Below are positions 46,462 through 57,754 of a stretch of DNA of 64,000 nt, piece after piece. Under the pieces are notes generated by a model. The model made no database searches, was not told where the DNA came from, and was given only the letters and a program-made list of their open reading frames with translations. Positions within the stretch are counted from its first letter, which is position 1. Each line of letters opens with the position of its first letter. A program made the translations under genes and the position numbers. Source of the DNA: Phycisphaeraceae bacterium (GTDB lineage Bacteria > Planctomycetota > Phycisphaerae > Phycisphaerales > UBA1924). The stretch covers positions 558,001 to 622,000 of the forward strand of contig JAHBWW010000003.1 in assembly GCA_019636795.1 (NCBI GenBank). The letters run 5' to 3'.

Positions 46462-48786
<2,325 letters not shown>

Positions 48787-53500: not shown

Positions 53501-55093
53501 TTACCCTTGCCCGCGGTCACTGCGCCCAGACAGGTCGGCGCGGAAACGGGCTTCGAGCCGCGTCTCGGCGGCGCGCGTCGGGTCGAGGCGCAGCGGCACG
53601 ATGAGGCTGAACATCGAGCCGTGCCCTTCCTGACTGACGATCTGCAGTTCGCCCTGAATCACGCCAGACAGTTCGCGGCAGATGGCAAGACCCAGGCCCG
53701 TCCCCGGGCGGGTGCCGTCGCGGTCGAGGCGGCTGAACTTTTCGAAGAGCAGTTTCTGATCGTCGGCGCTGATGCCCGGGCCGTTGTCGATCACGCTCAC
53801 GCGCACGCGCGCATCCTGACTCAAGAGCCCGGTCGGCGCGAGGCGTTCGGCCCGCAGGATGATCAGCCCGCGCTTGCCTTCGGGGCTGTCGGTGAACTTG
53901 ACGGCGTTGGACAGCAGGTTGAACACGATCTGGCTGAACTTCTTGATGTCCGTCTCGATGATGGGCACATCGGAGCGCACGTCCAGTTGCACCTCGAGCC
54001 CCTTGCGCCGCGCCAGCGGGTCGATCAGGGCGACCAGACTCTCGCACGTCGCCCCCACGCTCATGGGCGCGGGGTTGACCTCGATGCGCCCGGCTTCGAG
54101 CTTGGCCATCTCGAGCAGCGACTCGATCATCTCGAGCAGCGTGCGGCCCGCGCTGATGATGTTGTCGAGGTAGCGCTGCCGTTTGGTCAGCGCGACGGGG
54201 ATCGACTGCGAATCCGTCACGAACCGTTCGTGCTCGGCCCGCGCGATCTCGGCGAGCAGTTCGGCAAAGCCGAGAATGGAGTTCATGGGCGTGCGCAGTT
54301 CGTGGCTGACGCTGGCCACAAACTCGCTCTTGAGCTGCGTCGCCTTGGCCAGGGCGGCGTTGACTTCGGTCAGTTCGGTCAGGCGCCCGTCCAGGGCCGA
54401 GTTGATCGCCCGCAACTGGTCCTGCTTCATCTCGAGGTCGCTGAGCATGAGGTTGAAGGTCTCGGCCAGGGTCTCAAACTCGTCACCGGTGCGGATCTCG
54501 GAGCGCGTCGCCAGGTCGCCGTCGCGCACGCGTTCGGCCGACTCGCGCAGCGACCGCACCGGCGAGAGAATGATCCGCGTCAGGATCGCGCGAAACAGGA
54601 GCACGGCCACGCCCAGCACCACCAGCCCGGCGGCGAGCAGGTAGAGTGTGTTGATCGCCAGGTTGGCCGCCGCACCGTCGGAGCGCTGTTCGATGCTGAC
54701 GATCGAGACGAGCGTGCCCGCCTCGTCGCGGCGGGCGCGGGCGTATCGATATCTCTTGCTCCCGCCTTCCCAGGTGCTTTCGAGCAGTTCATTACGGGGT
54801 TTGGGGCGGGTGAAGGCTCGCGCCGCGCGCGTGAGAAAATCGTTGAATGACGCTTCGTCGGCAGGGGTCTCGGTGATCGAAGCCCCGGCGACGAGGAGGG
54901 CTTCGGGCTGGTCGAGTTCGATCCAGACCTGTGCCAGTTCGCGCGAGATCTCCAGTTGCCCGGCCCGCACAAGCCCGTTCATCCGCAGCCACGGCACGGT
55001 CAGGGCGATCGCGATCAGGATCGTGATGGCCCCGCCGAAGAGCAGCAGGCACTTGTTCGAGAGCGACAGTCGCAGCAGCAGCGGGCGCAGCAT
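53501..55093 (-). CDS. Orphan membrane sensor histidine kinase
   Basis: This 530-residue kinase has membrane helices near 14-36 and 145-170 bracketing a 105-residue periplasmic sensor. A HAMP domain (SPVRSLRESAERVRDGDLATR) follows, then HisKA with SVSHELRTPMNSILGFAELL (His about 264) and HATPase_c with N box NLLSNAVKFTD, G1 DNGPGISADD and G2 GTGLGLAICREL. The kinase is complete. No response regulator gene adjoins. ATG 55093 (MLRPLLL) is chosen over a longer frame. The 5' neighbours are two small genes on the same strand. Confidence 0.93.
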   Translation of the reverse strand: MLRPLLLRLSLSNKCLLLFGGAITILIAIALTVPWLRMNGLVRAGQLEISRELAQVWIELDQPEALLVAGASITETPADEASFNDFLTRAARAFTRPKPRNELLESTWEGGSKRYRYARARRDEAGTLVSIVSIEQRSDGAAANLAINTLYLLAAGLVVLGVAVLLFRAILTRIILSPVRSLRESAERVRDGDLATRSEIRTGDEFETLAETFNLMLSDLEMKQDQLRAINSALDGRLTELTEVNAALAKATQLKSEFVASVSHELRTPMNSILGFAELLAEIARAEHERFVTDSQSIPVALTKRQRYLDNIISAGRTLLEMIESLLEMAKLEAGRIEVNPAPMSVGATCESLVALIDPLARRKGLEVQLDVRSDVPIIETDIKKFSQIVFNLLSNAVKFTDSPEGKRGLIILRAERLAPTGLLSQDARVRVSVIDNGPGISADDQKLLFEKFSRLDRDGTRPGTGLGLAICRELSGVIQGELQIVSQEGHGSMFSLIVPLRLDPTRAAETRLEARFRADLSGRSDRGQG

Positions 55094-55147
55094 CGGGTGA
55101 GTGTAGGGAATTGGTGCCGCGTGCACGGGGGCGGGCCTCGCCTTGAT

Positions 55148-55318
55148 TCAGGCCGGAGCCGATGGCTCGCGCACGCGCCACGCGCCGCCGCACTCAGGAC
55201 AGACGCTCAGGCCGTCGGCTTCGGGCGGCGTGGCGGTCAGGTCGTAGCCGCACGCGGCGCAGCGGCCGGCAGCGGCGATGAGATCGGCCACGCGAGGACG
55301 CAGCAGGATGAACCACAT
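55148..55318 (-). CDS. Small zinc-ribbon membrane protein
   Basis: This 56-residue protein begins with a hydrophobic stretch (MWFILLRPRVADLIAAAG) and has RCAACGYDLTATPPEADGL followed by CPECGG, a two-CxxC zinc ribbon with the CGYDLT signature very common in planctomycetes. ATG 55318 overlaps the stop of the upstream small gene by one base (TGATG), which supports this start over a longer frame. It is likely made by translational reinitiation. Function unknown. Confidence 0.78.
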   Translation of the reverse strand: MWFILLRPRVADLIAAAGRCAACGYDLTATPPEADGLSVCPECGGAWRVREPSAPA

Positions 55319-55617
55319 CACAAAAGCGCCTGCGCAGATGCGGCGAAACCGGCGATGTAGATCAAAGGGAGCCAAGCCATCCACGCTTCAACCGCCGCGA
55401 GGTCAAGATCACCCGGATCTTCGGGTAGAAACAAGTCAAAATACAGCGGTATGGCGCAGGCGGTTCCGAACCATGGGAGCGTCACAAGCACGGCGTAGAA
55501 CCACGAGGCCATGAAGTACCGAAATCGTGCGCGACGGGCGAAGGCATTGGGCATGCGGACCCACAAACTCCAGTTGAAAGAGCGCTTGCGGACCCGGTTG
55601 TTGCGGTGATCGCGCAT
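55318..55617 (-). CDS. Small two-helix membrane protein
   Basis: This 99-residue protein has a basic N-terminus, a hydrophobic helix (about 36-57, YFMASWFYAVLVTLPWFGTA) and a second near the C-terminus (residues 79-98, MAWLPLIYIAGFAASA). It is coupled to the downstream zinc-ribbon gene by a TGATG overlap; together the two may form a small membrane complex. No family recognised. TATGAT 11 nt before ATG 55617 could be a -10 box. Confidence 0.6.
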   Translation of the reverse strand: MRDHRNNRVRKRSFNWSLWVRMPNAFARRARFRYFMASWFYAVLVTLPWFGTACAIPLYFDLFLPEDPGDLDLAAVEAWMAWLPLIYIAGFAASAQALL

Positions 55618-55771
55618 GGGATATGGGCATCATACCTGATCGCCCGTGATCGGTTGCGGCACAGTTGGACTCTGGACGGGTGCATGGCGCGATCTGCGTC
55701 GAACACGGGGCGATATGGCGCGATCATGCCGGGTTTGCGAGCCGCGAGCGGCGGTTGCGACCCGAAAAGCG

Positions 55772-56002
55772 CGCATTGGTACTCTTGAAACGCGCGTTTG
55801 TACTCCTGCAGCGCGCGTTGCAACGCCTGCAGCTCGAGAAATTATCGTGTCAGCGCGCGTTGCAACGCCTGCAGCGCGCGGAATTGTCGTGTCAACGCGC
55901 GGAATTATCGTGTCAGCGCGCGTTGCAACTCCTGCAGCTCGAGGAATTATCGTGTCAACGCGAGAAATTGTCGTGTCAACTCGAGGAATTCTCGTGTCAA
56001 CT
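55772..56002. repeat. 21-bp minisatellite, 11 units of two types
   Basis: Eleven adjacent 21-bp units begin CG(C/A)G. Type A (GTTGCAACGCCTGCAGC core) is units 2, 3, 5 and 8. Type B (GAATTATCGTGTCA core) is units 4, 6, 7, 9, 10 and 11. Unit 1 is degenerate. The 55618-56089 region otherwise has no gene. The unit length is a multiple of three, and one minus and two plus frames are open through it, translating as heptads. Confidence 0.9.
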
Positions 56003-56076
56003 CCAGCGTGTGCAGCGCCAGCGGGCGCAGAACCTGCGCCCCCCGCCCGCCCTGCCGACGCCCGCAGGGCCGTGCG

Positions 56077-56089: not shown

Positions 56090-57754
56090 ATGGCTCAGCG
56101 GACCGTCTATCTCGAAACCTTCGGCTGCCAGATGAACGAGCTCGACTCAGAGCTCGTCGCCGGGCGGCTGGCCGATCTGGGCTACGCCTTCACCGCCGAC
56201 AGCGAAGCGGCCGACATCGTCCTCTACAACACCTGCTCGGTCCGCGAGCACGCCGAGCAGAAGGTCTGGAGCCGCCTGGGCGACCTGAAGGACCGCAAGG
56301 CCCAAAGGCCCGACCTGGTCGTCGGCGTCCTCGGCTGCATGGCCGAGCGCGACGGGGCGGGGCTGATGAAGCGCATGCCGGTCGTTGACCTGATGTGCGG
56401 CCCGGCTGAACTCGACAAGCTGCCCGACCTCCTCGACAACGCCGTGCGCACGCGCCTCTCGCTGCTGGCCGACGACCCGGCCTCGGCCGCGCGCGTCTCG
56501 GCACGCATCGCAGCGCTGGCCGGCGGGGCCTCGCGCCGCAGTTCGACTCTCGCCGCCGCCGCCGACTCGCTGGAAATGCTCGACCTGTCGCGCACCATCG
56601 CGCCGACGGACAGCGCCCACCGCCGCAGCGCGTACGTCCGCATCACGCGCGGGTGCAACAAGTTCTGCACCTACTGCGTTGTGCCCTTCACGCGCGGGGC
56701 CGAAGTTCACCGCCCGCCCCAGCACATCATCGACGAGTGCAAACGCCTGGCTGACACCGGCGTCATCGAGATCACGCTCCTCGGCCAGACGGTCAATCAC
56801 TACCGTTTCGAGCACGACGCGGCCGTCAGCGCCGGCGGCATCACCCAGCCGCAGAAGGGACGCAGCTATAAGGGCGGGCATCGGCGCGATCCGTTCGCCG
56901 GCTCGCGCGTCACGACGTTCGCCGATCTGCTGCACATGATTCACGAGCGCGTGCCCGAGATTCTGCGCCTGCGCTTCATCACCAGTTACCCGCGCGACTT
57001 TGGCGATGATGTCCTCGACGTCATGCGCGCCAGCCCCCGCCTGTGCCGCTACATCCATGCGCCGGGCCAGAGCGGCTCGGATCGCATCCTGAGCGCGATG
57101 AACCGGGGGTATTCGGTCAGCGAGTACGACGAGTTCCTCGCCCGCTGCCGCGAGTACCTCGACGAGCCCGAAAAGGGGAGGCCCCTGATGCTCTCGGGCG
57201 ACATCATCGTCGGCTTCCCGACCGAAACCGACGAAGACTTCGACAAGACCATCGCGCTGGTGCAGCGCAGCCGTTACAAGAACTGCTACATCTTCAAGTA
57301 TTCGCCGCGTCCGGGCACCATCGCCTTTGACAAACTCGCCGATGACGTGAGCGAAGAGGTCAAACGCCAGCGCAACAACGCGCTGCTGGCCGTGCAGGCC
57401 GAGATCTCCGACGCCATCTCGCGCCAGCAGGTCGGGCGCACGTTCGACGTGCTCGTCGAGGGTCTGAGCCGCCGCGAACACAAGAAGCGCGGCACCGATG
57501 TCAAGCCCGGCAGCGGCATGATCGAACTGACCGTCGGCGGTCGCGCCTCGCATGCGGCCGTCCTCGATCTCGAAACAGATCCCGGCCAGAGCGTGCAGCT
57601 GAGCGGCCGCACCGAAGGCGACCAGATCGTGTTCTTTGACGCTGAGGCCCAGACCGATCCCGCCACAAACCTCGCCGAACATTTCGTCGGACAGATCGTG
57701 CGCGTGCACATCACATCGGCCGAGCGACTCGCTCTGCACGGCCACCTCGTCTGA
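56090..57754 (+). CDS. miaB: tRNA methylthiotransferase MiaB
   Basis: This 554-residue radical-SAM enzyme adds the methylthio group to i6A37 of tRNAs. The N-terminal domain has three cluster Cys (FGCQMNELDSE, NTCSVREHAE, VLGCMAERDG). The radical SAM domain has RGCNKFCTYCVVPFTRG, and a C-terminal TRAM domain is present. A charged insertion of about 35 residues after LLGQTVNHY (DAAVSAGGITQPQKGRSYKG) is longer than in most homologues. The frame is open 148 codons upstream through the 21-bp repeats, but ATG 56090 matches the family N-terminus. Confidence 0.94.
   Translation: MAQRTVYLETFGCQMNELDSELVAGRLADLGYAFTADSEAADIVLYNTCSVREHAEQKVWSRLGDLKDRKAQRPDLVVGVLGCMAERDGAGLMKRMPVVDLMCGPAELDKLPDLLDNAVRTRLSLLADDPASAARVSARIAALAGGASRRSSTLAAAADSLEMLDLSRTIAPTDSAHRRSAYVRITRGCNKFCTYCVVPFTRGAEVHRPPQHIIDECKRLADTGVIEITLLGQTVNHYRFEHDAAVSAGGITQPQKGRSYKGGHRRDPFAGSRVTTFADLLHMIHERVPEILRLRFITSYPRDFGDDVLDVMRASPRLCRYIHAPGQSGSDRILSAMNRGYSVSEYDEFLARCREYLDEPEKGRPLMLSGDIIVGFPTETDEDFDKTIALVQRSRYKNCYIFKYSPRPGTIAFDKLADDVSEEVKRQRNNALLAVQAEISDAISRQQVGRTFDVLVEGLSRREHKKRGTDVKPGSGMIELTVGGRASHAAVLDLETDPGQSVQLSGRTEGDQIVFFDAEAQTDPATNLAEHFVGQIVRVHITSAERLALHGHLV

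Follow-up and report, generated by a model that had tools for sequence, protein, structure and literature searches.

The array of 21-bp units upstream of miaB is best explained as a non-coding DNA element belonging to a class phased to two helical turns (21 bp being two turns of B-DNA), a reading to which we assign a probability of about one half and in which the use of the spacing is putative. The array lies in the window, the whole stretch of 64,000 nucleotides from a Phycisphaeraceae bacterium that was analysed. Arrays of the class have a common period and register, carry no coding signal, turn over their units and have an upstream place at one gene family, and more than half of them have a lattice with dyad symmetry. 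What persists is the period, a size of about ten units and often the place beside that gene family; the sequence changes. Bacterial tandem arrays are usually taken as slippage products or coding repeats, and one exact period in unrelated arrays across several genera suggests that a ruler is at work, which could be selection for helical phase or copying in fixed steps.

The array and its surroundings in the window, with gene calls here and throughout from a custom gene caller, are as follows.

53501 to 55126, minus strand: sensor histidine kinase-like gene (named from a reading of the sequence), the closest called gene to the left.
55318 to 55617, minus strand: small ORF of 99 aa, divergent from miaB, starting approximately 150 bp to the left of the array; not called by the custom gene caller.
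55728 to 55769, no strand assigned: two degenerate units in register with the 21-bp array (period scan from 55730, unit table).
55770 to 56001, no strand assigned: array of eleven 21-bp units (TRF, lag scan, unit table).
56023 to 56041, no strand assigned: perfect inverted repeat of 8 bp with a loop of 3 nt (GGGCGCAG-AAC-CTGCGCCC), read by eye in the interval from the array to miaB; it has no T run.
56090 to 57754, plus strand: miaB (UPF0004, radical SAM and TRAM domains), outside the array (gene calls, homologue alignment, Pfam).

A preliminary description of this DNA had given eleven exact 21-bp units in the order x-A-A-B-A-B-B-A-B-B-B, and both the unit table and TRF reproduce it, with the units spanning 55771-56001 and the main unit types being A (GCGCGTTGCAACGCCTGCAGC-like) and B (GCGCGGAATTGTCGTGTCAAC-like). 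The TRF score is at most 211, reached by a row of 63 bp, and the lag scan gave 84 bits with the best lag at 63 bp (three units) and a minimal period of 21 bp. By the one criterion of a tandem unit of 10-100 bp the array is a minisatellite or VNTR. CRISPR arrays consist of repeats of approximately 23-50 bp parted by unrelated spacers; the window array has a period of 21 bp and interiors that are alike, and is thus not built of repeats and unrelated spacers. Its place is a divergent intergenic region, where it stands solo, with no adjoining gene of the FN3-type family described below, and an influence on miaB or on the genes to the left is possible.

Lattice-pattern and lag scans found no fewer than 12 period-21 arrays in the window genome, and several unrelated unit sequences occur among them. 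Those besides the window array are the following.

Own-genome period-21 arrays: C1:726k, C3:310k, C3:491k, C3:547k, C4:80k, C4:88k, C4:219k, C4:428k, C5:210k, C6:87k and C6:320k.

The window array is related in sequence to several other arrays of its own genome, and a search of 61 genomes with its sequence gave matches in that one genome only, at several of these arrays. The exact B-type unit pattern had no match over the genome contigs, a set from which the window's own records are possibly missing. Period-21 arrays with other unit sequences are present in genomes G023 and G024, of the window's family, and in G057, of another family. When unselected stretches of G000, G024 and G023 (784 kb) were scanned for arrays of at least 43 bits and a period below 70, nine of the twelve intergenic arrays had period 21 and the other three period 9-10; two of the nine (L101 and L103) sit in weakly scored ORFs that are genes by one gene calling and not by the other. 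The unselected stretches of G057 (140 kb) yielded no period-21 array and one array of period 15. The class is patchy across genomes, since no period-21 array of at least 43 bits was found in 200 kb of G036, and no array of at least 40 bits around miaB in 80 loci, mostly from Planctomycetota (1.27 Mb). For the comparisons below we assembled a set of 43 arrays, partly from stretches picked for a CGCG lattice and excluding L125:14015-14287, which lies in a called gene.

It has been suggested that the array encodes a heptad-repeat peptide, either as a variable N-terminal extension of MiaB or as a young repeat-born gene, and we consider this highly improbable. The reading draws on the fact that seven codons make 21 bp and on the open frames: three frames, two plus and one minus, stay open over the whole window array, as had been claimed, and in addition the third plus frame is stopped only once, in the first unit, making a fourth almost open, while the other two minus frames are stopped. 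Open frames come cheaply here, because the unit is G+C-rich and its length is a multiple of three. Matches to MiaB were found in 60 of the 61 genomes, the own genome counted, and the full-length matches of relatives mostly begin to align at residue 1-6 of the start at 56090. Since, in addition, none of the miaB loci of 29 relatives has a period-21 array (TRF, and lag scan at 26 bits), the open frame upstream of miaB is probably incidental, and the proposed MiaB extension was not borne out. At one such locus, approximately 100 bp before miaB in G004 (L058:3004-3046), there is a 2.1-copy repeat of approximately 21 bp, which is below array size. That the relatives examined lack the array at miaB also weighs against the phased element.

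The repeat-born gene fared no better. A 3-bp signal in the column entropy is absent (z -1.4, 43 arrays), and mismatches between orthologous arrays of congeneric species are flat by codon position (179, 187 and 173, summed over nine pairs), unlike those of the linked genes in the same nine-pair comparison (328, 257 and 564); thus neither set has the codon-position bias in variation that a coding heptad repeat should have. Sister arrays in the own genome contain stops, TAA in C6:320k and TGA in C4:80k (read by eye), and 35 of the 43 arrays fall outside the called genes; the eight inside called ORFs we count against a non-coding element. In place of the idea that changes by multiples of 21 bp would keep a frame, we find that the period recurs in arrays of unrelated sequence and in DNA without coding signal. 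The evidence agrees with the further suggestion of a regulatory or structural repeat.

Of the 43 arrays, 39 measure 160-350 bp, and the arrays have approximately 8-16 units of exactly 21 bp. Identity between units within an array averages 64% (86 arrays, in which 4590 of 18207 letters depart from the consensus), and off-register unit copies, looked for within each array and up to 150 bp away, were found in none of the 43 arrays at the score cut used. The main rival explanation holds that such arrays are functionless minisatellites that arise by mutation or copying with a 21-bp ruler, be it slippage favoured at two turns or some enzyme. We regard this neutral origin as possible, and return to it below; the size range, and a register that is held at this level of unit identity, go beyond what slippage alone would give.

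Each unit has one contiguous conserved block, seen as a column entropy signal at period 21 (z 8.1, 43 arrays). A component at 10.5 bp is absent (z -1.2), which counts against a phased element. The reverse-complement symmetry of the lattice exceeds a column-permutation null in 27 of the 43 arrays at p<=0.05 and in 18 at 0.01, the window array being among the symmetric ones by the same null (p=0.022); the 16 arrays with non-significant dyad symmetry are again counted against the phased reading. Covariation between the arms within a unit is absent (24 of 43 arrays positive, mean +0.011), another point against that reading, and the symmetry is thus a property of the lattice and not of paired changes within units.

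Palindromic units may also act after transcription, as a row of small hairpins that would be bound or processed at the RNA level, an FN3-type protein being a possible partner. It is true that the predicted folds are stabler than those of column-permuted arrays (the mean z by strand is -2.1 and -2.0, and 27 of 43 arrays score under -2 on one strand or both) and that there is a slight excess of G-U in gene sense (748 observed against 527 expected; for A-C, 554 against 451). We nevertheless find an RNA-level element unlikely: the structure is equal on both strands, the fold z of the window array is only -1.6 and -0.6, the arrays have no composition skew by sense orientation (p 0.86 and 0.10), and the fold is lower in the sense orientation in just 28 of 44 cases (p 0.16). 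Furthermore, in the linked cases seen a promoter-like motif (see below) mostly comes after the array and ahead of the gene, so that the array would lie outside that transcript, and Rfam recognises two tRNAs in the window and nothing else.

Any bend present in the unit sums along the array because the period is 21 bp. Bending was predicted from two tables of dinucleotide parameters. With the first, the 43 arrays have a predicted bend per unit of 8.6 degrees against 3.95 in the flanks, and altered periods of 18-24 give 2.6-3.75; with the second table the corresponding values are 5.4, 2.9 and 1.5-2.1. For the window array the predicted bend is 15.2 against 6.7 after shuffling, with p 0.015 by the first table and 0.12 by the second. 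Selection for curvature beyond the period was considered and dropped, since shuffled 21-periodic sequence of equal dinucleotides bends nearly as much (6.97) over the 43 arrays; relative to such shuffles the mean z is 0.42 and 0.05 for the two tables, with 5 of 43 arrays at p<=0.05 in each.

For the phased element we propose that the feature in use would be the spacing, by which every unit shows one face of the helix. The array could then offer a protein a row of phased docking sites, act as coherently curved DNA in local chromosome organisation or in support of transcription, or do both. Before FN3-type genes it might function as an upstream element, and the window copy would be a solo array of the class.

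The FN3-type genes came to light through a comparison of array neighbours. They encode proteins of approximately 230 residues, in which the N-terminal part looks helical from the sequence and the C-terminal part is FN3-like; the best PDB matches are FN3 over the C-terminal half (E 2.6e-6), and searches of Pfam, NCBIfam, PHROGs and PADLOC with family members gave nothing convincing. At E 1e-5 the family was found in 21 of the 61 genomes and is multicopy in several, with at least 44 matches in G023 (46 of 73 candidates scored), 25 in G010 and 6 in the own genome, some of these counts being lower bounds. A correlation of family size with CGCG-lattice counts, from a pattern that also matches coding DNA, was considered and dropped; the Spearman coefficient, uncorrected for kinship, is 0.36 over the 61 genomes and 0.46 when only the window's family (37 genomes) is taken.

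At the 90 loci L224-L313, scored with an array cut of 30 bits, the arrays favour the upstream side of these genes: a period-21 array stands within 450 bp upstream at 39 of the 90 loci and within 450 bp downstream at two, and thirteen control periods occur at 0-2 of the 90 loci in the 700 bp upstream. Without the five loci of discovery the counts are 34 of 85 upstream and one of 85 downstream. In the 20-kb stretches of G023 and G024, an upstream array accompanies 4 of the 13 genes of the family, compared with 22 of 616 other called genes (odds ratio 12, p 0.0013). In the own genome one of the six family members is linked in this way, C5:209374, with its array 154 bp upstream. Arrays of at least 40 bits were seen at 44 of 105 family loci (eight loci fetched twice excluded, as well as L242, L243 and L244, below 100 bits), at a median distance of 260 bp and with a median length of 199 bp. 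This upstream bias is a further point against a neutral ruler.

A general preference of the arrays for gene starts was examined and rejected, the gene ends adjoining 35 intergenic arrays being 34 starts and 35 stops, and for this reason a general promoter preference fails to explain the link to the family. The 31 intergenic arrays without a family gene have 26 starts and 35 ends alongside. A promoter-like motif, AAGTCGCCC with at most one mismatch, occurs in the 300 bp that precede the gene at 24 of the 105 family loci, as compared with 3 on the minus strand, 5 downstream and 16 in a reversed-sequence control, and because of the last figure its count as a promoter motif is only suggestive. In the linked cases seen it lies mostly in the interval between array and gene.

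At the family loci of genus g24 we noted an extended promoter-like motif, mostly approximately 90-190 bp before the gene, in which C(C/G)TCGAT comes after AAGTCGCC(C) and which is clearer than the AAGTCGCCC count; it resembles a promoter of the sigma-28 type. At L115 in G023 a cluster of paralogues of approximately 200 aa adjoins two arrays.

We tentatively extend the phased reading to a class of intergenic elements defined by spacing, with palindromic units, approximately ten to an array and two turns apart, whose sequence is replaced and whose period is kept, and which would be tied upstream to the multicopy FN3-type family; each protein of that family may recognise an array of its own. It is on the other hand very unlikely, in our estimate, that array and FN3-type gene together form a mobile or selfish unit whose remnants are the solo arrays, the window copy among them. 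Such a unit would account for the many copies of the family in G023, for the position of the array 5' of the gene and for solo arrays akin to gene-linked ones, of which there are two pairs in G023. However, the invariant columns of the family have no obvious catalytic set, as far as can be read from the sequences, one member matched none of 50,697 phage records and none of 72,556 plasmid records, the paralogues have diverged and their arrays are mostly unrelated, and the own genome has only 6 family matches against at least 12 arrays. Another member gave no match in viral contigs.

A phylum-wide search with the family, in which 9 candidates were scored per genome, supplied three congeners of G023, and it is in this genus that variation of orthologous arrays in length and sequence was seen, the window's genus being represented in the searched set by its own genome. 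At several orthologous family genes the distance to the array is nearly constant, e.g. 306, 303 and 305 bp. The arrays of L257 and L318 align unit by unit, gapless and with 88% identity, and such alignment across species argues against a neutral origin. In the pairs L255/L317 and L258/L316 an array is found at the equal place with units that differ, and L322 has no detectable array, though its orthologues carry one. Over nine alignments of orthologous arrays there were 6 gap openings per 539 mismatches against 14 per 661 in the adjacent spacer; the difference is not clear, and we count it against the phased element and in favour of the neutral ruler.

Other observations also fit a neutral ruler. 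The unit sequences are arbitrary and turn over, and relatedness is found mostly within a genome, with 22 of 452 same-genome pairs related and one of 2323 pairs between genomes. Upstream of rpsD, G023 and G153 have arrays of unrelated units in differing inserted DNA, and the congeners G093 and G229 have none. On the 3' side of a hutI-like gene G023 has an array, G153 and G093 have none within 1.5 kb, and G229 has one farther away that belongs to a family gene. Arrays are thus gained and lost between congeneric species, which also weighs against the phased element. Because orthologous arrays exist in congeneric genomes, the question of the ruler can be tested, and the FN3-type family is a first candidate partner. 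Just upstream of rpsD in the four congeners (L340-L343) we noted in addition a leader (GGCCCAGCGTGGGCCGGATCAG... GCCGGCCCGCAGTCGCGGTC) that is highly conserved and may be an S4 leader RNA.

Several known systems resemble the arrays in part. The iterons of plasmid origins are direct repeats approximately two helical turns apart on one face of the DNA, a spacing much like that seen here; the arrays differ in numbering a dozen or more per genome with diverse sequences, and no Rep protein was recognised beside the window array, whose neighbours are the histidine kinase-like gene (by sequence reading), the ORF without a Pfam match at 0.01 (55318 to 55617) and miaB. BIME and REP elements are dispersed intergenic palindromes with a shared sequence. 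The arrays are likewise intergenic, dispersed and made of palindromic units, but the unit is mostly specific to its array and the tandem period is fixed, and a test for shared sequence failed by the pair counts given above. In type III toxin-antitoxin systems the repeats act at the RNA level, have longer units and go with a toxin nuclease. The linked copies are similar in having a repeat array upstream of a gene, and differ in that this gene has an FN3-like C-terminal part; as for a type III toxin gene downstream, the window has miaB, and nothing in PADLOC, Pfam or NCBIfam matches the linked family convincingly.

The literature searched yielded no account of arrays of this kind. Dispersed non-coding satellite families are rare in prokaryotes according to the part of the source consulted (PMC6749651), and those it describes in Leptospira interrogans and Methanocella conradii are, like the arrays here, short intergenic tandem arrays scattered in one genome as families of related copies. 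As they appear in that part of the source, those satellites share the repeat sequence, whereas here unrelated sequences share an exact period across genera (PMC6749651).

Repeats of other kinds were met along the way. The window has a perfect (AAC)22 trinucleotide run at 47960-48026, possibly inside a Q/N/T-rich coding stretch, and elsewhere in the own genome (L082:8244-13566) there is an island of tandem repeats of 117-120 bp that is unrelated to the 21-bp class. In the flanks of L064, L066, L068 and L079 (G000) and of L102 (G024) we observed a dispersed intergenic palindrome, CGTGGCCATG-GCTTTG-CATGGCCACG, and similar hairpins, which are common to the two genera.
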